Shown here piece after piece: positions 1-30,537 of a stretch of 64,000 nt of DNA. The stretch lies in assembly GCF_013283645.1 (NCBI RefSeq), contig NZ_JABEKV010000002.1, positions 379,798 to 443,797 of the forward strand. Reading direction: 5' to 3'. This stretch comes from Sinorhizobium psoraleae (lineage in GTDB: Bacteria; Pseudomonadota; Alphaproteobacteria; Rhizobiales; Rhizobiaceae). Under the pieces are notes generated by a model. It did not search any database, was not told the origin of the DNA, and saw only the letters and a list, made by a program, of their open reading frames with translations. The stretch's first letter is position 1. Each line of letters opens with the position of its first letter. The position numbers and the translations under genes were made by a program.

Positions 1-231
1 ACCGCCAGCAAGCACGAGCCGGGCATCATCCTTCGCTCCCGGCGCGGCGTGACAACTGACGCAGCCGCCGGCCCAGAAGACCTGCTCGCCATTGGCGAGA
101 TCCGGTTCGCCAAGTCCTTGCCAATGGGCTTCGTCCCACGGCGCAGGTTTCGTCAGCCACCAAAAAACGCCGGCGCCGGCAAGCGCCAGCACGACCAGAC
201 CGGATAGCAGTTTCGTTGTTCGCCGGCCCAT
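1..231 (-). CDS. c-type cytochrome, N-terminal part (runs off the window edge)
   Basis: The first 77 residues are visible: a short basic N-terminus, one hydrophobic segment (about residues 8-26) acting as signal or membrane anchor, then a single CxxCH heme c motif (CVSCH, residues 57-61). This predicts a periplasmic or membrane-anchored monoheme cytochrome that carries electrons in respiration. The rest lies beyond base 1. It sits downstream of another small cytochrome gene on the same strand, with an 11-bp hairpin between them. Two cytochromes in tandem suggest a shared electron-transfer role, but the partner enzyme is not visible. The start is the ATG at 231. Confidence 0.8.
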   Translation of the reverse strand, partial: MGRRTTKLLSGLVVLALAGAGVFWWLTKPAPWDEAHWQGLGEPDLANGEQVFWAGGCVSCHAAPGAKDDARLVLAGG

Positions 232-261
232 CAGGCCTCCCGATGCTGGAAAGACAGACAG

Positions 262-286
262 GATGCGCCGGCAGAGCCGGCGCATC
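262..286 (-). terminator. Perfect 11-bp hairpin between two cytochrome genes
   Basis: GATGCGCCGGC and its exact complement are separated by only three bases (AGA). There is no clean T-tract on the minus strand, so this may be a weak terminator, an attenuator or an mRNA-stabilising element between the cytochrome genes at 316-762 and 1-231. Confidence 0.5.
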
Positions 287-315
287 GCAACCGATCAGAA
301 TGAAGGAACGGCGTC

Positions 316-762
316 TCAGTCCTTTTTCAGCCGGTAGCTCTCATGACAGCTGGAACAGTCCTTGCCGAGGATGCCAAGGGCGGCGCCAACACCGGCCTGG
401 TCGGAAGGAAGCTGGGCAAGCAGCGTGCTCGCGTCAGTTCCAAGCTTGGCGGCCTTGGCCTTGAAATCATCCATGTTTTCCCAGATCTTCGGGCTGGCTT
501 CGGTTTCCAGACCGGTTTCCGAGCCCGCCGGGAAATGATTCGGGAAGACCTTCACGGTCTCGCTGATCGTCGTCAGCGATGCCTTTACGATTTCCGCATC
601 GTAGGGTTTTTCACCCTTGGCAATGCCGTTCAACGCACCGGCAGCTTGCCCTACCTTCTTCATCAGCTGCTGGCGCACTGCCTGCGGCTCGTCCGCCGCA
701 GTGACGGCAGTGACACCCAATCCCGCGAGGGCCGCAGCAAGCATAAGTGCTCGTATCTTCAT
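316..762 (-). CDS. Cytochrome c' / c-556 family protein
   Basis: A 148-residue secreted cytochrome. It has an N-terminal signal peptide (residues 1-22, ending near VTA-ADE), a predicted four-helix bundle, and a C-terminal heme site CSSCH about 12 residues from the end, the hallmark of the cytochrome c'/c-556 fold. Such proteins act in the periplasm in electron transfer or in binding NO and other gases. I chose the ATG at 762 rather than upstream in-frame starts because GGGAG sits at the right distance; the adjacent ATG at 765 is too close to it. Its neighbour downstream is another monoheme cytochrome. Confidence 0.88.
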   Translation of the reverse strand: MKIRALMLAAALAGLGVTAVTAADEPQAVRQQLMKKVGQAAGALNGIAKGEKPYDAEIVKASLTTISETVKVFPNHFPAGSETGLETEASPKIWENMDDFKAKAAKLGTDASTLLAQLPSDQAGVGAALGILGKDCSSCHESYRLKKD

Positions 763-984
763 CATGATCTCCCGGTCATTCGAACCCGCATCTGCGGCGT
801 CCTGTTGAGGCGCGGGCATGATGGCATTTTGGTCTTTCGACGGAAGTAACATTTTTTTGATGTTCTTGTCATTCCAGCATAATTTGGCTCCAACACCGCA
901 TTACCGCCGTCTGTCGCGTGCCGGAAGACAGCGTGAACACGACAGCCATGTTTTAATACTTGGGAGCGATCTGCCGCCGGCGTC

Positions 985-1623
985 CTACCGGGCACCTGCC
1001 CAACCCTGCCATACGGTCAAGACCGCAACTATGACCAGCACGACGCCGGCAGCCCGTCCGATCGCCACTGTTGCGCCCGGACTGCCGACAAGCAGGTCAC
1101 GGCCGCGCCCGGCGGCAAGGGCTAGCCCGCCATAGACGGCAAGCTGCGTAAACGCGATCATCAGCGCCATGACGGCCGCTTGCGACCAGACCGGACCGAA
1201 TTGCGGCTTCAGGAACTGCGGATAGACAGCCAGCATGAAGAGATAGGCCTTGGGATTCATCAGGCTTGTCAGCGCGCCCTGGCGAAAGCTCGCCCAGCGC
1301 GACAGGTGCACAGCCTTTTCGATGCCGCCGATCGTGATCGAACTGCGTAAAAGCGAGAAGCCGATCCAGGCGATGTAAAGGGCACCGGCGACAAGCAGTA
1401 CGTTGAAGAGCTGCGGCACCAGATGCAGGACGACGCTGACGCCGAGCGCGGCATAGAGCGTATGCAGCACGCCGCCGGCCATGATGCCGGCCGTTGCCGA
1501 CAGGCCGGACGCCCGTCCGCCGGTCAACGAATTGGCCAGGACGAAGACCATGTCCATGCCGGGCACGATGATGATGCCGAAGAGAAGGGTGAAGAAAAGC
1601 CAGAGGTTTTCCGTGTAGCTCAT
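985..1623 (-). CDS. LysE/RhtB family amino-acid exporter
   Basis: A 212-residue inner-membrane protein with about six hydrophobic segments and the early G(I/V)xxxPGMD-type motif seen in LysE/RhtB exporters (here IIVPGMD, near residue 20). The family exports amino acids or derivatives such as threonine, homoserine lactone and lysine; the substrate here cannot be read from sequence. The start is set at MSYTEN because the upstream codons lack a ribosome site. It is divergent from a YafY-type regulator 131 bp away, which is the likely controller. Confidence 0.85.
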   Translation of the reverse strand: MSYTENLWLFFTLLFGIIIVPGMDMVFVLANSLTGGRASGLSATAGIMAGGVLHTLYAALGVSVVLHLVPQLFNVLLVAGALYIAWIGFSLLRSSITIGGIEKAVHLSRWASFRQGALTSLMNPKAYLFMLAVYPQFLKPQFGPVWSQAAVMALMIAFTQLAVYGGLALAAGRGRDLLVGSPGATVAIGRAAGVVLVIVAVLTVWQGWAGAR

Positions 1624-1754
1624 GTCAGTTGTCCGTGAGATTTCCATGTGACGGGTGGGCGGATTGTCGATTCTTCAATCCGTTGACACGTGTTATACCG
1701 CCCTACAACTGACAGGGATTTGTCAGGAGGCTTTGAGGCGACGGAGGTTTTTTC

Positions 1755-2468
1755 GTGCGCAAGGCATCGCGCCTCTTTGAAATCATCCAGATCCTGCGGC
1801 TCGCCAGGAAGCCGGTGACGGCTGCGGAAATTGCCGAAGCGCTGGAGGTTACGCCCCGCTCGATCTACCGCGATATCGCGGCCCTTCAGGCAATGCGGGT
1901 GCCGATCGAGGGCGAACGCGGCATCGGCTATATCTTGAGGCCAGGCTTCGATCTGCCTCCTTTGATGTTCTCCATCGAAGAGACGGAGGCGATCGTGCTC
2001 GCGCTTGCGCTGCTGGCACGCACGGGCGACGAGGAACTGAAGGCCGCAGCGCGGCGCGTGAACCAGAAGATCACCGGCGCCGTTCCCGAGCCGCTCCGCC
2101 GAGCATTCCAGTCTCAGGCACTGCACGCCTGGGGTACCATAGCACCGCCACCGCCCGCCATCGATCTTGCCATAGTTCGCCGCGCGATCCGTGACGAGCA
2201 GAAGCTTGCGCTGGATTATCGCGATGAGCTCGGGCGAGCCACGGAACGCACAGTGCGCCCGCTGGCGCTGATCTATTATTCGGAGCACGCGATGATGGTC
2301 GCCTGGTGCGAACTGCGCCACGGCATCCGCAACTTCCGCGCCGACCGGGTGGAGCACTGCGAACCGGTGGACGATTTCTTCCACGACGAGGGCAACCGGC
2401 TGAGGCAAATGTGGATCGCCGGTTGGAAAGTGAATGCCGTTCCGTCGCTCGAGACGGGGGATGCGTAA
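1755..2468 (+). CDS. YafY-family transcriptional regulator (HTH_11 + WYL domain)
   Basis: A 237-residue regulator. Residues 1-60 form a DeoR-like winged helix-turn-helix (RKASRLFEIIQ...VTPRSIYRDIAAL). Residues 140-210 form a WYL-type ligand-sensing domain (LDYRDELGR...IYYSEHAMMVAWC). The start is a GTG with GGAGG eight bases upstream. It is divergently transcribed from the LysE exporter gene, so a role in controlling export in response to a small molecule is a fair inference. The ligand is unknown. Confidence 0.85.
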   Translation: MRKASRLFEIIQILRLARKPVTAAEIAEALEVTPRSIYRDIAALQAMRVPIEGERGIGYILRPGFDLPPLMFSIEETEAIVLALALLARTGDEELKAAARRVNQKITGAVPEPLRRAFQSQALHAWGTIAPPPPAIDLAIVRRAIRDEQKLALDYRDELGRATERTVRPLALIYYSEHAMMVAWCELRHGIRNFRADRVEHCEPVDDFFHDEGNRLRQMWIAGWKVNAVPSLETGDA

Positions 2469-2472
2469 GAAT

Positions 2473-2700
2473 TTGCCCCTCATCCGGCCTGCGGCCACCT
2501 TCTCCCCGCACGCGGGGCGAAGGAGACTCACGGCGGCGTTTCGGCACCAGTATCCCCTCTCCCCGCCTGCGGGGAGAGGGCTAGCGCATCGGCCCGAAAA
2601 TCGGACCCGATTTTCGGAAGGCACGATGCGTGGATTCAAAGAGTTACAGCGACCTTTGTGCGTCCTAAAGGACGCACGGCGCTGTAGGGTGAGGGGCAAA
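2473..2700. repeat. RIME-type intergenic mosaic repeat, split by a second repeat
   Basis: Two palindromic blocks (TTCTCCCCGC...GGGGCGAA and CCCTCTCCCC...GGGGAGAGGG) plus the end motif of a Rhizobium intergenic mosaic element. The terminal piece TAGGGTGAGGGGC lies at 2685-2700, separated from the body by 100 bp of unrelated repeat. Reading it as one RIME interrupted by an insertion explains both pieces. This fills most of the 302-bp gap between the YafY-type gene and sodB. Confidence 0.8.
2585..2684. repeat. 100-bp dispersed repeat inserted in the RIME, flanked by TAG/TAG
   Basis: A second copy of this element lies at 7376-7459. Shared blocks include the inverted repeat around CCGAAAATCGG...CCGATTTTCGG, the CACGATGCG/CACGTTGCG segment, TTCAAAGAG and CCTTTGTGCG. 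TAG occurs on both flanks (2582-2584 and 2685-2687), which looks like a 3-bp target duplication in GGGCTAGGGTGAGG. It contains internal palindromes and no coding sequence, so a MITE-like non-autonomous element is plausible. Confidence 0.65.
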
Positions 2701-2712
2701 CTGCAGGCCTCT

Positions 2713-2746
2713 CAAAAACGAAAAGACCCGGCGCAAGCGCCGGGCC
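2713..2746 (-). terminator. Rho-independent terminator of sodB
   Basis: On the minus strand GGCCCGGCGC and GCGCCGGGTC form a tight GC hairpin followed by TTTTCGTTTTTG. It lies 25-58 bases past the sodB stop codon. Confidence 0.9.
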
Positions 2747-2770
2747 GAACTCGCCGAAAGACGATGCCGC

Positions 2771-3373
2771 TTACTTCGCCGCAGCTTCGTACATTTCGAG
2801 CACGTAATCCCAGTTAATGAGATTGTCGACGAACGCCTCCAGGTACTTCGGGCGGGCGTTGCGATAATCGATGTAGTAGGAGTGCTCCCAGACATCGACG
2901 CCGAGGATCGGCGACGCGCCGTGAACGAGCGGGTTTTCGCCGTTCGGGGTCTTCGAGATTTCAAGCTTGCCGTTCTTGACCGAGAGCCATGCCCAGCCGG
3001 AGCCGAACTGGCCGGTGCCGGCGGCGATGAAATCGGCGCGGAACTTGTCGTAGCCGCCAAGGTCGGACTTGATGGCCGCGTCGAGCTTGCCCGGCAGGCT
3101 GGTGCCGCCGCCGCCCTTCTTCATCCACTTCCAGAAATGGATGTGGTTGTAGTGCTGGCCGGCATTGTTGAACAGCGGCTGATTCGTCCCATAGGACTTC
3201 TTGACGACTTCCTCGAGCGAAAGACCGGAAAGACCGGCTTCCTCGGCGAGCTTGTTGCCGTTCGTCACGTAAGCGAGGTGATGCTTGTCGTGATGATATT
3301 CGAGCGTTTCGCGCGACATGTAGGGGGCGAGCGCATCGTAGTCATAGGGAAGGTTCGGCAATTCGAAAGCCAT
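2771..3373 (-). CDS. sodB: Superoxide dismutase, Fe/Mn family
   Basis: A 200-residue enzyme that converts superoxide to hydrogen peroxide and oxygen in the cytoplasm. All four metal ligands are in place: His27 (EYHHDKHH), His77 (HYNHIHFW), Asp160 and His164 (DVWEHSYY). It is full length for the family. In S. meliloti the related enzyme works with either Fe or Mn, so the metal should not be assigned from sequence alone. The ATG at 3373 has AGGAG upstream and gives the standard MAFELPNLPY start; longer upstream frames are not protein-like. A strong terminator follows. Confidence 0.96.
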   Translation of the reverse strand: MAFELPNLPYDYDALAPYMSRETLEYHHDKHHLAYVTNGNKLAEEAGLSGLSLEEVVKKSYGTNQPLFNNAGQHYNHIHFWKWMKKGGGGTSLPGKLDAAIKSDLGGYDKFRADFIAAGTGQFGSGWAWLSVKNGKLEISKTPNGENPLVHGASPILGVDVWEHSYYIDYRNARPKYLEAFVDNLINWDYVLEMYEAAAK

Positions 3374-3734
3374 TGTGGCATCTCCTCTTGGTATGGATTT
3401 CGTCAAGGAAATCTGTGAGCGGGAACATAGGCACCGGCATAGACCGAGGCAACCGATGCGGTGCCAAAATTTCTCTGCCACACGCAAAATACTTTCGTTG
3501 CGTTTCCAGCGAACCCCTCTCCGTGGCAAATTCTCGTCAAGACCGGCACCTCGCAGCGAAACGGACTCGCCGATCATCAAGACGGTCGTGAGGCCACGCG
3601 CAGAGGCACGGTGAACGCCGTTCGCTCTTCCCTCTCCCGTTGATCCCGGAGGGGTCGCGTCGCCGCCACCCGCGCCAGACCTCCCATACGGCTGGCATAT
3701 CGACATCCCGCACGGGCGCCCTATGTCTTCGAAC

Positions 3735-3799
3735 GTCTAACTCTTGAAGCGACGCAATTCCGGACGGAAAACCGTTACACACTTTTCCTGGAATTGCTC
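3735..3799 (+). repeat. Dispersed approximately 65-bp repeat, copy 1
   Basis: The core GCAATTCCGGACGGAAAACC followed by GTTACACACTTTTCC and GGAATTGCTC recurs at 21851-21912, 25688-25784 and, inverted and diverged, 42695-42779. Its ends are complementary (GCAATTCC/GGAATTGC), so it can fold on itself. It lies in the 448-bp gap 3374-3821; apart from the sodB leader I see nothing else there. It ends 22 bases before the next gene's start codon. Confidence 0.8.
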
Positions 3800-3821
3800 C
3801 ATGCAGCAAGCGGAGGATCTT

Positions 3822-4238
3822 ATGGAATTTCACCAGGGCCGGTTGCTAGACCATGTGCATCTTCGCGCAAGAGACCTCGCTGCCAGCAAACGTTTCTATC
3901 GCGCTGTTCTCGCCGCTCTCTGCCACCAGCCGACCTTCGAGACCGAGCAGGCGATTGTATTCGACGAACTCTACATCGATCAGGCCGAAAGCTATCGCAG
4001 CCATGTTCACATCGCCTTCCAGGCGGTCGACCCGGTTGCGGTTCACCGTTTCTACGAAGCCGGCATTGCGAACGGCGGGAAAGACAATGGCGAGCCGGGT
4101 GAGCGACCTTACCATCCCGGCTATTTCGCCGCCTTTCTCCTCGACCCCGACGGCAACAACATCGAGGCGGTCTATCATGGGCCGACGACGCGCTCGTCCG
4201 CCGATGTCGTCATCCGTCCGCTGGAGACCGACGCATGA
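3822..4238 (+). CDS. VOC (glyoxalase/dioxygenase fold) family protein
   Basis: A 138-residue protein with the vicinal oxygen chelate fold. It has an N-terminal metal-binding-type segment (LLDHVHLRARDLAAS..FYRAVL, residues 7-30), a middle His in SHVHIAFQA, and a C-terminal block ending LLDPDGNNIEAVYHG. These proteins bind a divalent metal and act as glyoxalases, dioxygenases or antibiotic-binding proteins; the substrate is not assignable here. The ATG at 3822 has GGAGG five bases upstream. It overlaps the next gene by four bases (ATGA), so the two are translationally coupled. Confidence 0.85.
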   Translation: MEFHQGRLLDHVHLRARDLAASKRFYRAVLAALCHQPTFETEQAIVFDELYIDQAESYRSHVHIAFQAVDPVAVHRFYEAGIANGGKDNGEPGERPYHPGYFAAFLLDPDGNNIEAVYHGPTTRSSADVVIRPLETDA

Positions 4239-4492
4239 CGGCCGGCACGGCTGACCTCAGACGCGCGATCCAGCCGATGCCGGACGATATCTCCACGCGG
4301 CTACGCGACAGCGGGCTCGGAGCAGCCTATGCCGCGCGTCCAGCCTATCAGCGCAACGACTATCTCGGCTGGATCGCTCGCGCCAAGCGCGACGAAACCC
4401 GCGAGAAGCGCATCGCCCAGATGCTTGCGGAACTCAAGGCTGGAGACGCCTATATGCGCATGCCCTATCGCGTCCGGGGCGACGAGAAATAG
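4235..4492 (+). CDS. Small YdeI/OmpD-associated-like protein
   Basis: An 85-residue protein whose C-terminal two thirds (AARPAYQRNDYLGWIARAKRDETREKRIAQML) matches the helical module of the YdeI/OmpD-associated family, where a conserved W-I-x-x-A-K-R segment precedes an R-I-x-x-M/T-L helix. The full-length family also has an N-terminal domain that is absent, so this is a short form. Its role is unknown; family members have been linked to peptide or bacteriocin tolerance. It is coupled to the upstream VOC gene by a four-base overlap and probably expressed with it. Confidence 0.75.
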   Translation: MTAGTADLRRAIQPMPDDISTRLRDSGLGAAYAARPAYQRNDYLGWIARAKRDETREKRIAQMLAELKAGDAYMRMPYRVRGDEK

Positions 4493-4559
4493 CCATACCG
4501 GAGGCGGCCCATGCCGCCCACGGGAAACCCGGCGACAAGACAACCGCGTGTCCGCGCCG

Positions 4560-5441
4560 TCAAACGTCCTGACTCGAATGCGCCCAGTCCATGTAAAGGT
4601 CGCGCGCCTTGGCGGCGATCGGGCCGGCCTGGAGATCGCGGTCGTCAAGGCGGGTCACGGGCAGCACCTTGGAATAATTGCCGGTGGTGAAGACCTCGTC
4701 TGCCGCTTCGAAATCGGCCATGGTCATCGTGGTTTCCACCACTTCGAAGCCGGCCTCGCGCAAAAGCGTCATGACGCGGAAGCGGGTGATGCCGGCAAGA
4801 AAGGTCTTGTTGGCCGCCGGCGTGAACACGATACCGTCTTTCACCATGAAGATGTTGGATGATCCGGTCTCGGCGATATTGCCGAGCATGTCGCGCACAA
4901 GCGCGTTGTCGAAGCCGCGCGAGCGCGCTTCGTTGAGGATCCGGGCGTTGTTGGGATAGAGGCAGCCGGCCTTTGCATCCGTCGGCATGCACTCGATCGT
5001 CGGCCGGCGGAAGGGCGACAAGGTCAGCGATGAGCCACCGTGGGCGTTGCCCATCGGCGCCTCGAACAGGCAGAGCGCGAAACGCGTCGATTCCGGATCC
5101 ACCGCCACGACGCTCCAGGAGCCGTGCTCGCCCCAATACATCGGCTTCACGTAGATCGCCGTCTTGCCGTCGAACTTCTTCACGCCCTCCCACGTCAGCG
5201 CCTCGATCTCTTCGGCGGCCATCGTGGGTTTCAGCCCAAGCGATGTGGCCGAACGGTTGACGCGCTGGCAATGCAGGTCAAGGTCCGGCGCGATACCGTC
5301 AAACCAGCGGGCACCGTCGAAAACCGTGGATCCGAGCCACATCGCGTGCGAGGTCGGCCCGATCAGCGGAGGATTGCCGGAAAGCCATTCACCGTCGACA
5401 TAGGTCCAGGTGGTTGAGCGGGGGGATGTATCGACGGCCAT
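4560..5441 (-). CDS. Branched-chain amino acid aminotransferase (fold-type IV, PLP)
   Basis: A 293-residue PLP enzyme expected to transfer the amino group between leucine, isoleucine or valine and 2-oxoglutarate. The PLP lysine is Lys157 ([12 protein letters not shown]), with the cofactor-binding Glu in [11 protein letters not shown] and a typical N-terminal [11 protein letters not shown] segment. Length matches short bacterial IlvE/D-amino-acid-transaminase relatives, so an amine or D-amino acid substrate cannot be ruled out. It is convergent with the YdeI-like gene and divergent from the alcohol dehydrogenase gene. The start at 5441 is followed directly by conserved sequence. Confidence 0.87.
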
Positions 5442-5621
5442 CGGCGTCTCCTCTCGTTTATCGTCCGTTCGGAAATCGAATACGATTTAAGGAAACATGC
5501 AGTAGCCGAAAAAAACAGCACCGGGGTGAACGGGTACATAAAAAAATGTCATGGCATCCATTCTGGAACCGGCCGGACCGCCATGCCAAAATGGCCCCGA
5601 CAGCATGGAGTAAGACCAGTC

Positions 5622-6662
5622 ATGAAAGCGATGTATTACGACGCGTTCGAAAAGACGCCGGAGATCAAGGTTTTGCCGGATCCGAAGCCGAGTGAAAACG
5701 GGGTCGTCATCAAGGTCGAGGCGACCGGCCTTTGCCGCAGCGACTGGCACGGCTGGATGGGACACGACGCGGACATTCGCCTGCCGCATGTGCCGGGCCA
5801 CGAGCTCGCCGGAACGATTGCAGCCGCCGGACGCAGCGTCGTGCGCTACAAGGTCGGGGACCGCGTGACCGTTCCGTTCGTTTCCGGCTGCGGCCGTTGC
5901 GCGGAATGCCGCTCGGGCAACCAGCAGGTTTGCGAGGCGCAGTTCCAGCCGGGCTTCACCCATTGGGGTTCGTTTGCCGAATACGTGGCGATCGACTTTG
6001 CCGACCAGAACCTCGTGCACCTGCCGGAGAGCATGGATTTCGCGACCGCCGCAAGCCTCGGCTGCCGCTTCGCCACATCCTTCCGGGCGATCGCCGACCA
6101 GGCCCGCGTCGAGGGCGGTGAATGGGTGGCGGTGCACGGCTGCGGCGGCGTCGGCCTATCGGCGATCATGATCGCCGCGGCGCTCGGCGCCAACCCGATC
6201 GCGATCGACATTTCCGAGGAGAAACTCGCCTTCGCCCGCAAGCTCGGCGCCGTGGCAGCGATCAACGGCAAAGAGACGGGAGATGTCGCCGAGGCCGTGA
6301 GGGAAATCACCAAGGGCGGCGCCCATGTCTCGATCGACGCTCTCGGTTCGCCCGTCACCTGCTTCAATTCGATCAAGAACCTGCGCCGGCGCGGGCGCCA
6401 TGTGCAGGTGGGCCTGATGCTCGCGGAGCATGCGACCCCGCAGATCCCGATGGCGCAGGTGATCGGCCACGAACTCGAGATCTACGGCAGCCACGGCATG
6501 CAGGCCTGGCGCTACGACGCGATGCTTTCGATGATCACCGCCGGCAAGCTGAACCCAAAACAACTGATCGGCCGCGAGATCTCGCTGGAAGAGGCCGTGC
6601 CGGCGCTGGTGACGATGGACCGCGCCACCGATCTCGGCATCAGCGTGATTACGCGGTTTTGA
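5622..6662 (+). CDS. Zinc-dependent alcohol dehydrogenase (MDR family)
   Basis: A 346-residue medium-chain dehydrogenase. The catalytic zinc site is set by Cys in LCRSDWHGW and the GHE motif (VPGHELAG). The structural zinc site has four cysteines ([15 protein letters not shown]), and the nucleotide-binding Rossmann motif is HGCGGVGLS. It should oxidise an alcohol or reduce an aldehyde with NAD(P). The ATG at 5622 was preferred over upstream in-frame codons because it begins the conserved domain and has GGAG upstream. It is monocistronic as far as can be seen. Confidence 0.92.
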
Positions 6663-6732
6663 TCAGGGATTCCGATCGTCGCCGCGCGCTGTTATGGTTT
6701 TCGCGAGCAAGACGAATCAACGAGGTCCCGTC

Positions 6733-7284
6733 ATGGCGCTTGCGGCTCAAACCACCGAAGGTGAGCTTTACCGGCCTGTTCTCGGCAGCAATCCGGCGCA
6801 TCCGAATGGCTGGCCGGTTCGCCTGATCGTCACTTCGCAGACGGAGGCGCGTCACAATCGCCACCTTTGGGCGCCGACGCATCTCGTCTCGATCCGCGCG
6901 CCTGCAAGCCGCCTGCTCTCCATGATCGAACTGCCGCCCGAGCGGCATCTGGAGCTTTACTTTGGCGATGCCGCCGACCCGGACGCACCTGACGCCGCAC
7001 GCGCGGAGGCGATCGAGGCGACCTTTGCCTTTATCGACACGCTGCCCGCGGATGCGCATCTGCTGGTCCATTGCCTGAGGGGTATCGGCAGGTCGACCGC
7101 GCTCACGCTCGGCATTCTGGCGCGCTACATGGCGCCCGAGGAGGCGGCCGCAGCCCTTCACGCACTTCGCCCCGAAGCCAAACCGAACCGCCACGTCGTC
7201 GGGCTCTGTGATGCCATTCTCGGGCTCAAGGGGAAACTTGCGAAACAGGCGCTGCGTTTTCCGGCAAAAGTCTGGAAAGCTTAA
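6733..7284 (+). CDS. Tyrosine/dual-specificity phosphatase-like protein
   Basis: A 183-residue cytoplasmic protein with the phosphatase signature C-x5-R in VHCLRGIGRSTA (about residues 116-127) and an upstream segment (DAARAEAIEATFAFIDTLPADAHLLVHC) typical of the cysteine phosphatase fold. An aspartate in FGDAADPDAPD could be the general acid. Rhizobial homologues are generally annotated only as protein tyrosine phosphatase. The target is unknown. It follows the alcohol dehydrogenase by 70 bp on the same strand and may share its transcript. Confidence 0.78.
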   Translation: MALAAQTTEGELYRPVLGSNPAHPNGWPVRLIVTSQTEARHNRHLWAPTHLVSIRAPASRLLSMIELPPERHLELYFGDAADPDAPDAARAEAIEATFAFIDTLPADAHLLVHCLRGIGRSTALTLGILARYMAPEEAAAALHALRPEAKPNRHVVGLCDAILGLKGKLAKQALRFPAKVWKA

Positions 7285-7375
7285 TTAAATTCGTATTGCC
7301 ATGCATGATGGCATTGTGCGCCGCACAAAGTTTTGACATGATCCCCGGAAAGAACTGACGAAGCGTTGCGCCTAT

Positions 7376-7459
7376 CGCACCGGGCCCGAAATCGGAACCG
7401 ATTTTCAGCGAGCACGTTGCGTGATTTCAAAGAGATAAAGCGTCCTTTGTGCGCCGCTG
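7376..7459. repeat. Second copy of the element found at 2585-2684
   Basis: It shares CGCACCGGGCCCGAAATCGG/CCGATTTTC, GCACGTTGCGTGATTTCAAAGAG and CGTCCTTTGTGCG with the element inside the RIME at 2.6 kb, but lacks the extra GTCCTAAAGGAC palindrome. It lies between the phosphatase-like gene and the dehalogenase gene, ending 23 bases before the latter's start. Confidence 0.65.
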
Positions 7460-7482
7460 AATGGTCATGACGGGAGGGTTCG

Positions 7483-8145
7483 ATGTCTCTGGCGGCCTAT
7501 GTCTTCGATGCCTATGGCACGCTTTTCGATGTGCATGCGGCCGTGCGGCGCCATGCCGAGGCGATTGGTCCTGACGGCCAGGCCTTTTCCGAACTCTGGC
7601 GGGCCAAACAGCTCGAATATTCCTGGGTACGCTCGCTGATGGGCGCCTATGTCGACTTCTGGCAACTGACCGAGCAATCGCTCGACTACGCCTTTGCGCG
7701 CTTCCCCTCGGCCGATCCGAAATTAAAGAAACGGCTGCTCGATGCCTACTGGACGCTCGACTGCTATCCCGAGGTGCCGGCCGTGCTGAGAGGACTGAAG
7801 GAGCGCGGCGCCCGCATCGCCATCCTTTCCAACGGGTCGCCGGCCATGCTCGCATCGGCGGTGAAGAACGCCGCTCTCGACATTGTGATCGACGACGTGT
7901 TCTCGGTCGATGCGGTCAAGGCGTTCAAGACGGCGCCCGCCGTCTACGACTTGGTGACGACGCAATACCGGCTCTATCCGCACGCGGTTTCCTTCCAGTC
8001 GTCGAACCGCTGGGATATTGCGGGAGCGACAAAATTCGGCTTCCGTACCGTCTGGATCAACCGCTCCGACATGCCGGACGAATACAGGGACTATGGTCCT
8101 GCACTCATCCTCCCCTCGCTCGAGAGCCTGCAGTTCGGCATCTGA
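7483..8145 (+). CDS. Haloacid dehalogenase, type II (HAD superfamily)
   Basis: A 220-residue hydrolase matching L-2-haloacid dehalogenases. The nucleophile Asp9 lies in [10 protein letters not shown], motif II Ser in ILSNGSP, the lysine in KAFKTAP, and the type II signature [10 protein letters not shown] near the C-terminus (about residue 175). The reaction is expected to be hydrolytic removal of halide from short 2-haloacids to give the 2-hydroxyacid. GGGAGGG precedes the ATG. The tam gene starts 13 bases after its stop, so the two are probably co-transcribed. Confidence 0.9.
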
Positions 8146-8158
8146 AGAAAGTCGCCTC

Positions 8159-8932
8159 ATGGCCTGGTCGGCAGCGCAGTATGTGAAATTCGAAGACGAG
8201 CGGACACGGCCTGCGCGCGACCTCCTGGCGCAGGTGCCGGATCTCCCCGCCGGTCCGGCCTTCGACCTCGGCTGCGGGCCGGGCAACTCGACCGAGTTGA
8301 TCTTTGAGCGATTTCCGAATTCCGCTGTCGTCGGCGTCGATAGCGACGAGGACATGCTGGCGGCCGCGCGCGAGCGGCTTCCGGCTCTACGCTTCGAGAA
8401 GGCCGATCTAGCGACCTGGGTGCCGCCGGCGGAAACTGCGCTCTTCTTCGCTAACGCGGTGTTCCAGTGGCTGCCGGAGCACATCGAGATTTTCGATCGG
8501 CTGATCGAGGCGCTTGCGCCCGGCGGAACGCTTGCCGTGCAGATGCCGGATAATCTCGACGAGCCGACGCACAGGCTGATGCAGGAGACGGCGGAGGCCC
8601 CGCTCTTTGCGCAAGCGTATGGCGGCCGCAAGCTTCGGCGGGCGCCGCTGCCGCCGCCGTCGACCTATGTCGAACGGCTCGCAGCGAAAGCGGTGCGCGT
8701 CGATGTCTGGCACACGGCCTATCATCATCAGCTCGCCAGTGCCGAGGCGATCGTCGAATGGGTGAAGGGCACCGGCTTGCGGCCTTATCTCGACGCCCTG
8801 CCAGAGGATCGGCGCGCAGACTACCTTGCCGCCTACACGGAAAAGATCCGAAAGGCCTATCCGCCGATGGCCGACGGCCGGGTTCTGCTGCGTTTCCCGC
8901 GCTTTTTCATCACCGCAACCAAGGATCGGTAG
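8159..8932 (+). CDS. tam: Trans-aconitate 2-methyltransferase
   Basis: A 257-residue SAM-dependent methyltransferase. Motif I is [12 protein letters not shown] (residues 35-46), followed by the acidic end of strand 2 ([10 protein letters not shown]) and the post-motif [11 protein letters not shown]. Tam methylates trans-aconitate, an inhibitory by-product of the TCA cycle intermediate cis-aconitate. The [23 protein letters not shown] opening fits the family closely and fixes the start at 8159. It follows the dehalogenase gene by 13 bases. Confidence 0.9.
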
Positions 8933-8979
8933 ATGAGGCCGGCCACGTTCACGCAATGCAAGCGACACCGCTTCGCGTC

Positions 8980-9873
8980 CTAAATTCTTTCGACCAGGAA
9001 ATCGATGAAAGCGCGGATGCGGGCCGCAAGGTGCTCATGCCCGGCATAGACCGCGTGCACCCGTTCCATGTCTTCCGGATTGTAGTCTTCCAGCACCGGT
9101 ACCAGCCGGCCCGCATCGATATCCGGCTGTACGTGGAACTGCCCGACGCGGCCGAGGCCGAGACCCGAAAGGCAGAGATTGCGAACGATCGCGCCGCTGT
9201 TTGCCTGCATATTACCGGTGACCGGGCGCACATACACATTTGACGAGCCGGGATCGCGGAACGGCCAGCCGTCGAGGCTGCGGCGGAAATTGAAGGTGAA
9301 GCAATTGTGCTGGGCGAGGTCATCCGGCGTCCGCGGCACGCCATGAGCCTCAAGATAGCGCGGTGCGGCAACAATCACCTGCCGGCTATCGAGCAGCTTG
9401 CGTGCCATCAGGCTGGAATCGCGCATCGGACCAGACCGAATCGCGACGTCGGTCCGCTCCTCGATCAGATCGATGATATCGTCGTTCAAGGAGAGATCCA
9501 GTTGCACGTCGGGATAACGCGCGAGGAATTCGGCAGCAAGCGGCAGGATGTAGCGCTCGCCGAAGCCTACAGACGCGTTCACCCGTAGCGGACCACGCGG
9601 CAGCGCCCGACCGCCGCCGGCGACCACCTGTTCCGTCTCGGCAATCGCCGCCAGGATGCGCTGCGCGCGGTGGAGGTAGATTTCTCCCTCCGGCGTCAGT
9701 TGCAGCATGCGGGTGGAGCGCATGACGAGCCGCGTTCCAAGCCTGTCCTCGATACGGGAAACAAGCTTGCTGACGGCGGAGGGCGACAGTTTGAGCCGCC
9801 GACCAGCGGCGGAAAAGCTGCGCAGTTCGGCCGCTGCAACAAAGACTTCCATTTCGCCAGCGCGGTTGTCCAT
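8980..9873 (-). CDS. LysR-family transcriptional regulator
   Basis: A 297-residue LysR regulator with an N-terminal winged helix-turn-helix (FVAAAELRSFSAAGRRLKLSPSAVSKLVSRIEDRLG, residues 10-45) and a C-terminal periplasmic-binding-like effector domain. It is divergent from an MFS exporter gene with 157 bp between the two starts, the usual layout when a LysR protein controls its neighbour. Effector unknown. Confidence 0.92.
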   Translation of the reverse strand: MDNRAGEMEVFVAAAELRSFSAAGRRLKLSPSAVSKLVSRIEDRLGTRLVMRSTRMLQLTPEGEIYLHRAQRILAAIAETEQVVAGGGRALPRGPLRVNASVGFGERYILPLAAEFLARYPDVQLDLSLNDDIIDLIEERTDVAIRSGPMRDSSLMARKLLDSRQVIVAAPRYLEAHGVPRTPDDLAQHNCFTFNFRRSLDGWPFRDPGSSNVYVRPVTGNMQANSGAIVRNLCLSGLGLGRVGQFHVQPDIDAGRLVPVLEDYNPEDMERVHAVYAGHEHLAARIRAFIDFLVERI

Positions 9874-10030
9874 TTTGCATCACCTTTGAATTCAGTTCAC
9901 AGGCATTTATCCATTCCTGCGGATTATCGCGCAAGCCCGATCGATCCATATTCCCGGTCATCAATCAAGCAAACCGCGGCACGGCCGCAAAGTTCAGCCC
10001 GTGTCACATTCGGGCGGGGAAGGTATTTCT

Positions 10031-11212
10031 ATGCCCATTGCTCTCTTTGCCTTGACGATCGCGGCCTATGCGATCGGAACAACGGAATTCGTGATCGTCG
10101 GCCTCCTGCCGACGGTCGCCTCTGATCTTCACATCTCCCTGCCTCTCGCCGGCCTCATCGTCAGCGTTTATGCCCTCGGCGTCACGTTCGGCGCGCCTGT
10201 GCTGACCGCGCTTACCGGTCGGATCGAGCGCAAGCCCTTGCTCCTCGGCCTGATGGCCCTCTTCATCGTCGGGAATGCCGCCGCAGCACTTTCTCCAAGC
10301 TACGAATTGCTGCTCGCCGCTCGGGTCCTGTCGGCCTTCGCCCATGGGGTCTTTTTCTCCGTCGGCTCGACAATTGCCGCCGATCTCGTGCCCGAAGATC
10401 GCCGGGCGTCGGCGATCGCCATGATGTTCATGGGGCTGACGGTCGCAATCGTCACCGGCGTGCCGCTCGGTACCTATATCGGCCAGACCTTCGGCTGGCG
10501 CGCGACCTTCTGGGCCGTTACCGCGCTCGGCGCCATCGCCTTTATCGGCATCGCAGCCCTGCTGCCGAATACGCTGAGCAAGGCCGCCGCGGCACGCCTC
10601 GTCGATCAGGTTCGCGTGCTCGGATCCGGCCGCCTGCTGATCGTCTTTGCGATGACGGCGCTCGGCTATGGCGGCACCTTCGTCGCCTTCACGTTCCTCG
10701 CGCCGATCCTGCAGGAAATCACCGGTTTCTCCGAAGGCAGCGTCAGCCTAATTCTGGTGCTCTATGGCATCGCCATCGCGATCGGTAATGTTATCGGGGG
10801 AAAGATTGCCAACCGCGATCCGGTGAAGGCGCTGATCGGCCTCTTTGTCGCCCAGGCAGCCGTACTCGTACTCTTCACCTTCACGGCCCCTTCCCCGGTA
10901 CTGACGCTGGTCACTTTGGCGGCGCTCGGCTTCCTTTCCTTCGCCAACGTGCCCGGCCTGCAGCTCTACGTCGTCCAGCTTGCCAAGCAGTACCGTCCCG
11001 GCGCCGTCGACGTCGCCTCGGCCCTCAACATCGCCGCGTTCAATCTCGGCATTGCGGTCGGCGCCTGGCTCGGTGGCCTTGTGGTTTCCTCACCGCTGGG
11101 CCTCGCTTCGACGCCGTTCGTCGGAGCGATCCTGGTTGTCGCCGCCCTGATCCTGACGTTGTGGAGCGGCGTGCTCGACCGGCGCGCGGTTCCGGTCGGG
11201 CAGCCGGCTTGA
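10031..11212 (+). CDS. MFS transporter, DHA1/AraJ-like drug or sugar exporter
   Basis: A 393-residue, 12-helix inner-membrane transporter. The early segment AIGTTEFVIVGLLP and the loop 2-3 region with R-I-E-R-K-P match the DHA1 arabinose-efflux/multidrug subgroup (AraJ/YdhP-like). The ATG at 10031 has GGGGAAGG upstream; an in-frame GTG at 10001 lacks a ribosome site. It is probably controlled by the divergent LysR gene. Substrate not assignable. Confidence 0.88.
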   Translation: MPIALFALTIAAYAIGTTEFVIVGLLPTVASDLHISLPLAGLIVSVYALGVTFGAPVLTALTGRIERKPLLLGLMALFIVGNAAAALSPSYELLLAARVLSAFAHGVFFSVGSTIAADLVPEDRRASAIAMMFMGLTVAIVTGVPLGTYIGQTFGWRATFWAVTALGAIAFIGIAALLPNTLSKAAAARLVDQVRVLGSGRLLIVFAMTALGYGGTFVAFTFLAPILQEITGFSEGSVSLILVLYGIAIAIGNVIGGKIANRDPVKALIGLFVAQAAVLVLFTFTAPSPVLTLVTLAALGFLSFANVPGLQLYVVQLAKQYRPGAVDVASALNIAAFNLGIAVGAWLGGLVVSSPLGLASTPFVGAILVVAALILTLWSGVLDRRAVPVGQPA

Positions 11213-11251
11213 ACCTTCGTTCTGCCACCACAAGTATAGAATGTCGAATTC

Positions 11252-11270
11252 GCCCGGCATCTTGCCGGGC
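11252..11270. terminator. Short perfect hairpin between MFS and aldo/keto reductase genes
   Basis: GCCCGGCA and TGCCGGGC are separated by three bases. No T-tract follows, so it is more likely an attenuating or stabilising hairpin than a full terminator. It sits 24 bases before the reductase start codon. Confidence 0.5.
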
Positions 11271-11294
11271 CTCTCCAAACCAAGGAGCTTTTCC

Positions 11295-12128
11295 ATGCAC
11301 GCAGTCAATTCCAACGGCGCCAATATTCCCGCCCTCGGTTTCGGTACCTTCCGCATGCCAGGCGCCGATGTCCTTCGCATCCTGCCGGGAGCGCTGAAAC
11401 TCGGCTTCCACCATGTCGACACGGCGCAGATCTATGGCAACGAGGCCGAAGTCGGCGAGGCCATCCACCAATCGGGCGTTCGGCGCGCGGATATTTTTCT
11501 GACGACGAAGGTGTGGGTCGACAATTATCGCCATGACGCCTTCCTCACCTCCGTGGACGAGAGCCTGAAAAAGCTGAAGACAGACTACGTGGATCTTCTC
11601 CTCCTCCACTGGCCGGGCAGCGACGTGCCGATGGCCGAGCGCATCGGCGCGCTCAACGAGGTGCAGAAGGCCGGCAAGGTACGCCATATCGGCGTCAGCA
11701 ACTTCAACATCGCCCAGATGGAGGAAGCCGTCCTGTTGAGCGACGCGCCGATCGCGACCAATCAGGTGGAATATCACCCCTATCTCGACCAGACGAAGGT
11801 CCTGCAAGCCGCGCGCCGGCTAGGCATGTCACTGACAGCCTACTATGCCATGGCCAACGGCAAGATACCGTCCGATCCCCTACTCAAGGACATCGGCGCG
11901 CGCCACGGCAAGACAGCGGCACAGGTGGCCTTGCGCTGGCTCGTGCAGCAGAAGGATGTGGTCGCGCTGTCGAAGACGGCGACTGAGGCCCGGCTCAAGG
12001 AAAATTTCGCGATTTTCGATTTTGCACTGACGCCGGAGGAAATGGCGGAGATCCGCAAGCTTGCGCGTCCGGACGGTCGGATCGTCAGCCCCGCGGGTCT
12101 GGCCCCTGAATGGGACAGAGCGGCCTAA
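11295..12128 (+). CDS. Aldo/keto reductase
   Basis: A 277-residue NADPH-dependent reductase of the AKR fold (2,5-diketo-gluconate reductase-like). It has the family block GFHHVDTAQIYGNEAEVG carrying catalytic Asp and Tyr, the Lys in TTKVWVDNY, His in LLLLHWPG, and HIGVSNFNIAQ. It should reduce aldehydes or ketones, and may help detoxify reactive carbonyls. AAGGAG precedes the ATG at 11295. A bidirectional terminator follows. Confidence 0.92.
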   Translation: MHAVNSNGANIPALGFGTFRMPGADVLRILPGALKLGFHHVDTAQIYGNEAEVGEAIHQSGVRRADIFLTTKVWVDNYRHDAFLTSVDESLKKLKTDYVDLLLLHWPGSDVPMAERIGALNEVQKAGKVRHIGVSNFNIAQMEEAVLLSDAPIATNQVEYHPYLDQTKVLQAARRLGMSLTAYYAMANGKIPSDPLLKDIGARHGKTAAQVALRWLVQQKDVVALSKTATEARLKENFAIFDFALTPEEMAEIRKLARPDGRIVSPAGLAPEWDRAA

Positions 12129-21850: not shown

Positions 21851-21912
21851 TCCAACTCCTTGAAACGCAAATGCGGACGGAAAACCGCTACACAGTTTTC
21901 CTGGAATTGCTC
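21851..21912 (+). repeat. Dispersed approximately 65-bp repeat, copy 2
   Basis: It shares GGACGGAAAACCG, CTACACAGTTTTCCTGGAATTGCTC with the copies at 3735, 25688 and 42695. Its end overlaps by one base the stop codon of the minus-strand GST gene: TAG is read from TAGAGCAATTCC. The insertion may have set that gene's stop. Confidence 0.75.
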
Positions 21913-22532
21913 TACGCCTGGACCGCAGCCAGCACCTTGGCGACGGCCGGTCGTGCGACCATGCGGTTGCGGTGGTCGAGAACCTTCGGGAAACGTCCCG
22001 GATCGACGCCATCCGCCTCCAGCCAGTTGGCGATGGTGAAGAGATAAGGATCTGCGATCGTATAACCCTCTCCCATGACAAAAGGGCCGGCGAACATGTC
22101 GCGTTCGATGAGCGCGAAGCAGTCGCCCATGTTTGATGCCACCTTCGCCTTCATCGCTTCATGCGCCGCCGGATCGTCTGCCCATCTGGCACCGCGTCGC
22201 GCATGCGCGTGGGCCACGTGCACGGTGGAGCAGAGATAGCTCAGGAAGGATTGCAGCCGTGCGAACGCGAACGGATCGTCAAGCGGCGCAAGGCGGCGGT
22301 CTGGAAAGCTCTGGGCGATATAGGCCAGGATGGCCGGGGTTTCGGTGAGCACGCCGCGGTCCGTCACCAAAGCCGGAACTCGCCCTTTCGGATTGATCGC
22401 AAGATATTCCGGCGTGGTTTGTTCTGCTTTCGCGAAATCGACGCGTCGCGCCTCATAGGCGGCGCCCACTTCCTCGAGGGCGATATGCGAAGCGAGCGAG
22501 CAGGTCCCCGGGGCGTAAAACAGTTTCAGCAT
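21912..22532 (-). CDS. Glutathione S-transferase family protein (second)
   Basis: A 206-residue GST. The N-terminal domain starts MLKLFYAPGTCSLASHIALEE, the beta-class-like motif with Cys/Ser near the catalytic position; NPKGRVPALVTDRGVLTETPAIL supplies cis-Pro and glutathione contacts. The C-terminal helical domain includes YTIADPYLFTI. It resembles bacterial beta-class GSTs used against oxidants and xenobiotics. ATGATG starts sit behind GGGAGG; the second gives better spacing. Its stop codon abuts a dispersed repeat. Confidence 0.9.
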   Translation of the reverse strand: MLKLFYAPGTCSLASHIALEEVGAAYEARRVDFAKAEQTTPEYLAINPKGRVPALVTDRGVLTETPAILAYIAQSFPDRRLAPLDDPFAFARLQSFLSYLCSTVHVAHAHARRGARWADDPAAHEAMKAKVASNMGDCFALIERDMFAGPFVMGEGYTIADPYLFTIANWLEADGVDPGRFPKVLDHRNRMVARPAVAKVLAAVQA

Positions 22533-25687: not shown

Positions 25688-25784
25688 ATCAATTCATTGT
25701 TTCATTGAAGCAGTGAAATGATCTAACTCTTTGGAGCTGCGCAATTCCGGACGGAAAACCGTTACACACTTTCCTGAATTGCTC
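25688..25784 (+). repeat. Dispersed repeat, copy 3 (longest form)
   Basis: The core GCAATTCCGGACGGAAAACC and TTACACACTTTCC is preceded by an extra module containing GTGAAATGATCTAAC, which also occurs at 42764-42778. It directly follows the DUF3750 stop codon. Together with the small transcription unit at 25811-26024 it fills the 404-bp gap 25688-26091. Confidence 0.75.
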
Positions 25785-25810
25785 TGGACCGCTGCGCGAG
25801 AACTCTTTCA

Positions 25811-30449: not shown

Positions 30450-30537
30450 CCCTCTCCCTGCACGGGCGAGGAGACTTGGGCGCGCGCCATATCCTTCTCC
30501 CCGCGAGCGCGGAGAAGATGGCGGCGCCGGATGAGGC
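30437..30537 (+). repeat. RIME repeat between betI and betC
   Basis: CCCCTCACCCTAGCCCTCTCC, a central variable part, then CCTTCTCCCCGC...GCGGAGAAG and the GCGCCGGATGAGG end. Its first codons CCC TCA CCC TAG supply the end of betI. The palindromes could fold in the polycistronic mRNA. Confidence 0.85.

Follow-up and report, generated by a model that had tools for sequence, protein, structure and literature searches.

A 101-bp element inserted at a TA dinucleotide of a RIME in Sinorhizobium psoraleae, probably a MITE-like repeat moved by an IS630-family insertion sequence

A RIME of S. psoraleae is interrupted by a 101-bp element, which inserted as a unit, duplicated a TA found mostly in the context C-TA-R, and occupies a target in common with an insertion sequence (IS) of the IS630 family. 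It is likely that the element is non-autonomous and MITE-like, of the IS630/Tc1-mariner kind, and is moved in trans by a resident IS630-family IS; from these observations we infer the transposase that probably acts and its probable chemistry.

The interrupted RIME and its empty counterparts

In the window, i.e. the whole stretch of 64,000 bp analysed (contig NZ_JABEKV010000002.1, positions 379,798 to 443,797), the RIME extends from 2472 to 2699 on the plus strand and is interrupted at the junction CTA/GGGTGAGGGG by the element at 2584–2684, consisting of a G and a 100-bp core. The element is flanked by a left TA (2582–2583) and a right TA (2685–2686), the two copies of the duplicated target, such that positions 2578–2696 read GGGC-TA-GCGCATCGG...GGCGCTG-TA-GGGTGAGGGG. 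The name RIME is taken over from the preliminary description of this DNA because no annotated copy of this S. meliloti repeat was at hand for comparison. Its 5′ portion, reaching to the insertion point GGGC (2472–2581), matches many RIME copies of the own genome and is unbroken in genome G005 (by inference S. chiapasense) and in all five own-genome copies that were read; its 3′ end, GGGTGAGGGGCAA (2687–2699), was recognised by comparison with own-genome RIMEs. The five intact RIMEs had an unbroken junction, GGGCTAGGGTGAGG in four and GGGTTAGGGTGAGG in one. The net insertion is 103 bp, and upon removal of 102 bp the joined flanks had one extra G relative to each of these five. These intact copies and the unsplit RIME of G005 confirmed that a RIME had been split by an inserted repeat. 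Two further RIME 3′ ends in the window, at 30452 and 33624 on the minus strand, had no insert at the same junction.

The own genome contains three copies of the element at E ≤ 1e-20, namely that in the window and two near-identical ones elsewhere (96% and 95% identity to it). An additional copy in the window, previously placed at 7376–7459, is real, as its best local alignment (7372–7461, plus strand) scored 101 and none of the other 1807 pieces (140 bp each) taken from the window exceeded 34 on either strand; but it is degenerate and truncated on the right, with most of the right hairpin missing.

The neighbours of the window locus are presumably a YafY-like/WYL regulator gene and a superoxide dismutase gene, and a flanking gene was present in all 33 genomes of the genus. 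Among the intergenic regions shorter than 500 bases at this locus, from 28 genus records and 19 named records, the element was found in the own genome only. G005 had a RIME without the insert between the same flanking genes, and the closest relative, G028, had a degenerate RIME without it, as judged by eye. A clean empty site with a single TA was found at 5 of the 13 loci examined, the window locus among them. In R. leguminosarum GLR17, the CTAA stop of kdpB had become CTA-G...TA-A; of the three relatives fetched, two had CTAA and one CTGA. Single-TA empty sites were also seen for an acyl-CoA dehydrogenase gene of R. leguminosarum (two relatives with TTAG and one with CTAA), for an MBL hydrolase gene of Rhizobium sp. 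BT04, and for a site occupied in G031/G032 and empty in G025 (TTAG).

The remaining loci gave other results. RidA relatives lacked the element and had TGA stops, and a bare TGA stop was present in 12 of the 30 genomes fetched for the gene end before what we take to be der (L315–L344); these two loci therefore do not demonstrate a TA. It was also noticed that the gene end before der carried different repeats in different genomes, each starting at the stop codon. At one of two further G031 sites, one relative had CA and another had an element of an older family at the same TA in reversed orientation; at the other G031 site, the relatives were divergent. Of two G032 sites, one had no usable relative and the relatives of the other also lacked a neighbouring repeat. 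At one TA (L252 and L217), G031/G032 had the window-type element and G010 a reversed member of the older family. At a TetR/MFS locus, the spans were near the query length in all 40 records listed out of 120. An ABC-transporter locus was rejected as an empty site, as its relatives contained a degraded relative of the element. The empty site in G005 and those at other loci substantiate the earlier suggestion that the insert had moved as a unit, whereas the search for empty sites in relatives that was proposed with it succeeded at 5 loci and not at the other 8.

Target sites at TA, RIMEs and stop codons

From 71 loci, representing the best-scoring matches in Sinorhizobium, 64 copies were retained after those with identical flanks had been dropped, and merging of similar flanks left 55 distinct sites, a step that also merged three different sites with a common neighbouring repeat. 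TA was present on both sides at 50 of the 55 sites, mostly as C-TA-R: the left TA followed a C at 47 of the 55, and the right TA preceded A or G at 54. At the 5 sites without two TAs, TA was missing on one side. The first base of the element was G at 50 sites and, at 24, this G was combined with an A after the right TA; therefore, the duplication is TA, and the G belongs to the element. The 3-bp TAG duplication previously proposed was rejected on the basis of these 24 sites and the CTAA of the kdpB relatives. The proposed survey of flanks for TAG or TA was thus decided in favour of TA, and duplication of TA upon insertion, as in IS630/Tc1-mariner elements, is seen both in these 50 sites and in the single TA of the empty ones. 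Of the view that the element is MITE-like with a preference for TAG, the MITE part is upheld by the flanks and the empty sites and the TAG part is not.

Orientation was counted at 36 sites lying outside detected gene stops, all of them flanked by TA on either side, after six shared sites had been removed by hand. CTAA was found 17 times versus 3 times for TTAG (P = 0.003); some of the 36 could belong to short genes whose stops escaped the test. Hence the left and right ends of the element seem to differ in how they relate to the target.

A search of 33 genomes with the pattern CTSTAGGGTGAGGGG, which sees one RIME orientation, gave 13 matches in 10 genomes (2 with the reversed control), all 13 being RIMEs interrupted at the same place (a strict pattern for the RIME left half identified 7, and inspection by eye the other 6). 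The interrupter was the window element in one RIME, the older family in 9, a third small element in 2 and an IS630 in one. In two of the 9 RIMEs the older family lacked TA on the left, and among 15 of its copies parsed from 27 loci TA was kept at 7 left and 12 right ends. The third element, of about 100 bp, starts with CTAGAGCGGGATG or CTAGTGCGGGATG and ends with ATGCTCTA, and was seen in two RIMEs of G011 (L356 and L362). The IS630 was found in G032, flanked by TA on either side. A further copy of this IS is inserted in the loop CGTCC-TA-AAGG of one copy of the element; in another copy of the element, this loop contains a member of the older family, with TG instead of TA on its left. This shared RIME site is the strongest link between the element and IS630. 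The proposal that such an element would explain the dispersed palindromes applies in part, namely to the older family and the third element, which occupy this RIME site in genomes of the genus other than the own. A dispersed palindrome, GCAATTCCGGACGGAAAACCG...GGAATTGC, was also observed in the window at 3752–3804, 21865–21917 and 25739–25791, the third copy being 70% alike.

Gene stops were called only from the open frame (at least 80 codons) and third-position GC. By these calls, the left triplet was the exact stop of a long GC3-biased frame in 21 of the 64 copies (17 of the 55 sites), and an antisense gene stop at the right end was found in none of the 64. As background, in which only CTAG and CTAA were counted, 11 of 158 CTAR strand-sites located outside coding sequence within 149,106 background bases were gene stops (Fisher P = 3e-5); a further 77 CTAR sites were inside coding sequence. 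The left triplet of the gene-stop copies was TAG, except for TAA in L091 and TGA in L157. By a cruder count, an open frame of at least 100 codons ended at the stop triplet in 24 of the 64 copies, compared to 8 and 12 in the other frames. Five annotated genes ending on the element had been selected for look-up by the presence of a gene in the match table; one further locus had no gene. RIMEs and stop codons are favoured landing sites, and the excess at stops may result from selection against insertions at other sites. In L091, L183, L190 and L226, another repeat (TGCATGTCGCCCAAAAGTG...) directly followed the element, and in relatives of L226 this repeat came directly after the stop codon.

We propose, tentatively and with rather less than even confidence, that stop codons serving as safe landing places, the G rebuilding TAG, and older repeats including RIMEs serving as landing pads together gave rise to the mosaics of rhizobial repeats. 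C-TA-R would then be recognised with fixed polarity, the left end facing the C; a TAA stop would become TAG with the protein unchanged; and older repeats, e.g. RIMEs, would be used by related elements and by IS630s as well.

Structure, distribution and candidate transposases

The element consists of two hairpins joined by a linker, as judged from fold and sequence. The left arm (2584–2630, plus strand) is an inverted repeat, and the right arm (2644–2686, plus strand), TTACAGCG...CGCTGTA, has the loop CCTAAAGG, the one occupied by the IS630 and the older-family member in the two copies described above (both in G032). Single-strand folding of 2580–2686 gave z = −6.5 against 200 shuffles. In five of six aligned Rhizobium copies, a C-G pair of the right stem was changed to G-C on both sides; read inwards, the right end was TACAGCG in six aligned Sinorhizobium rows and one Rhizobium row, and TAGAGCG in five Rhizobium rows, which had a corresponding change on the opposite side of the stem. 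The linker contains GATTC (2633–2637), corresponding to GANTC with variable N in 57 of the 64 copies, a site type of a cell-cycle methyltransferase according to passages of PMC2229807. Since positions beside it are conserved about equally well, conservation of GANTC does not establish selection for it.

Apart from TA and GCGC, at an offset of 2 bp, the two ends have nothing in common, and long terminal inverted repeats are absent from the element. No Rfam match up to E 0.5 was obtained for window positions 1–12000, and a promoter/terminator scan revealed no promoter-like site and one terminator-like site, outside the element. With 101 bp, no transposase gene and multiple copies, the element has the size and coding status of a MITE.

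At E ≤ 1e-20, 25 of the 33 genus genomes had a match and 8 had none; seven had at least 27 each, among them G032, in which several copies at unlinked sites were each 96–97% identical to the window copy. The element was also present, at the same threshold, in 144 of 72,556 plasmid records, 131 of Rhizobium and 9 of Sinorhizobium. The older family is larger in the own genome and has its right half in common with the element. No replichore polarity of the copies was found by eye.

Transposases with PF13358 were detected in all six genomes searched. Scanning of 30 IS630 loci for ends gave 25 candidates, 16 of which begin with TA(G/A)AGC, several of these being copies of one IS. The right end of the element, TA(C/G)AGCG, agrees with this, and its left end, TAGCGCATC, only partly. 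The IS630 that interrupts the RIME starts with TAGAGTC, not TAGAGC; a DDE_3 domain was detected in one of its frames and weak HTH matches in the other, and the NCBI IS630 transposase model was matched by both, by the first above the cut-off. An autonomous IS with the two ends of the element was not found in G032 with the end patterns (26 and 43 matches), and IS630 ends had no match in the window and the earlier loci. Only one pair of such ends enclosed an IS630, at G032:C2 445080–446238; this candidate autonomous element was rejected, as the IS630 had inserted into a copy of the element. TA is duplicated by ISY100, a member of the IS630 family, as stated in a portion of PMC2170065.

Proposed mechanism, alternatives and known repeats

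We suggest that a resident IS630-family IS would supply its transposase in trans, that the transposase would move the element to a TA, mostly within C-TA-R, and that repair would duplicate this TA. The RIME holds one such site, GGGC-TA-GGG, and would therefore be struck repeatedly and become a mosaic. Stop codons TAA or TAG following a C would be another frequent landing place, where the first base of the element, G, would rebuild a TAG stop.

Transfer as single-stranded DNA by an IS200/IS605- or RAYT-type HUH (Y1) transposase is very unlikely. It would predict a hairpin close to each end, non-equivalent ends, and insertion on the 3′ side of CTA(G) with no true duplication. The two hairpin arms agree with it, as does the bias of CTAA over TTAG, which is unexpected with two equal DDE ends; but PF01797 was found in only one of the six genomes (G021) and neither in the own genome nor in G032 with its many copies, and the identical RIME site was used by an IS630 with TA on both sides. 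A Y1/REP mobiliser was rejected on the basis of this PF01797 distribution. Origin of the split RIME with no transposition, i.e. by recombination between repeats or by gene conversion reshuffling RIME and insert as modules, is very improbable: repeats in these genomes are mosaic, and the own RIME segment appeared by eye closer to that of G005 than to the degenerate one of G028, but the same unit, its ends fixed, is present at dozens of unrelated sites (flanked by TA on either side in 50 of 55), and empty sites occur in unrelated genes.

It is also unlikely, although less so, that the element serves mainly as a functional RNA or as a 3′-end signal selected at gene ends, its mobility being ancient. 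The strong fold, the two-sided stem change in Rhizobium, the excess at gene stops over background CTAR sites, and a copy upstream of der common to several species would fit such a role; the near-identity of unlinked G032 copies, the filled sites that are empty in relatives and the lack of an Rfam match in window 1–12000 speak against it. We favour trans-mobilisation by an IS630-family IS, under which the empty sites, the TA duplication and the target shared with IS630 provide a testable mechanism for small rhizobial repeats, described in part of PMC2573895 as intergenic sequences of unknown function. Repeated insertions would explain the mosaic look of RIMEs, and such elements can rewrite stop codons while leaving the gene undisrupted.

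A literature search, which left most subscription journals uncovered, turned up no publication on this insertion. According to a section of PMC2573895, the repeats named for S. meliloti are RIMEs, Sm-repeats and the AB and C motifs, and one of those listed (Sm, AB or C) may correspond to the insert or to the older family. Judging from excerpts of the respective papers, GTAG-tagged REPs (PMC3733652) and BOX (PMC3049150) provide the stop codon of neighbouring genes, as the element does, but differ from it in size and structure; REPs go with Y1 (RAYT) transposases (PMC2817692). Bru-RS of Brucella (PMC2267715) is likewise an intergenic repeat of nearly equal length (103–105 bp), palindromic by the title of the source, a likeness by size and title only. 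CIR, as summarised in part of PMC2229807 after Chen and Shapiro 2003, is alphaproteobacterial, about 110 bp long, and has two inverted-repeat arms, a linker and GANTC; the element resembles it, by description only, in size, in its two joined arms and in its conserved GANTC, but this is located at or in the terminal loop in CIR and in the linker of the element. The mobility of CIR needs more information, according to the same portion of that source. In the parts consulted of PMC2229807 and PMC3049150, RUP of pneumococcus is about 107 bp long, has TA as target and is proposed to be moved in trans by IS630-Spn1; it is like the element in being non-coding, in its size, in its target and in the IS630-family mover proposed, but RUP has terminal inverted repeats like those of its IS, whereas the ends of the element are short and unequal and its body consists of two separate hairpins.
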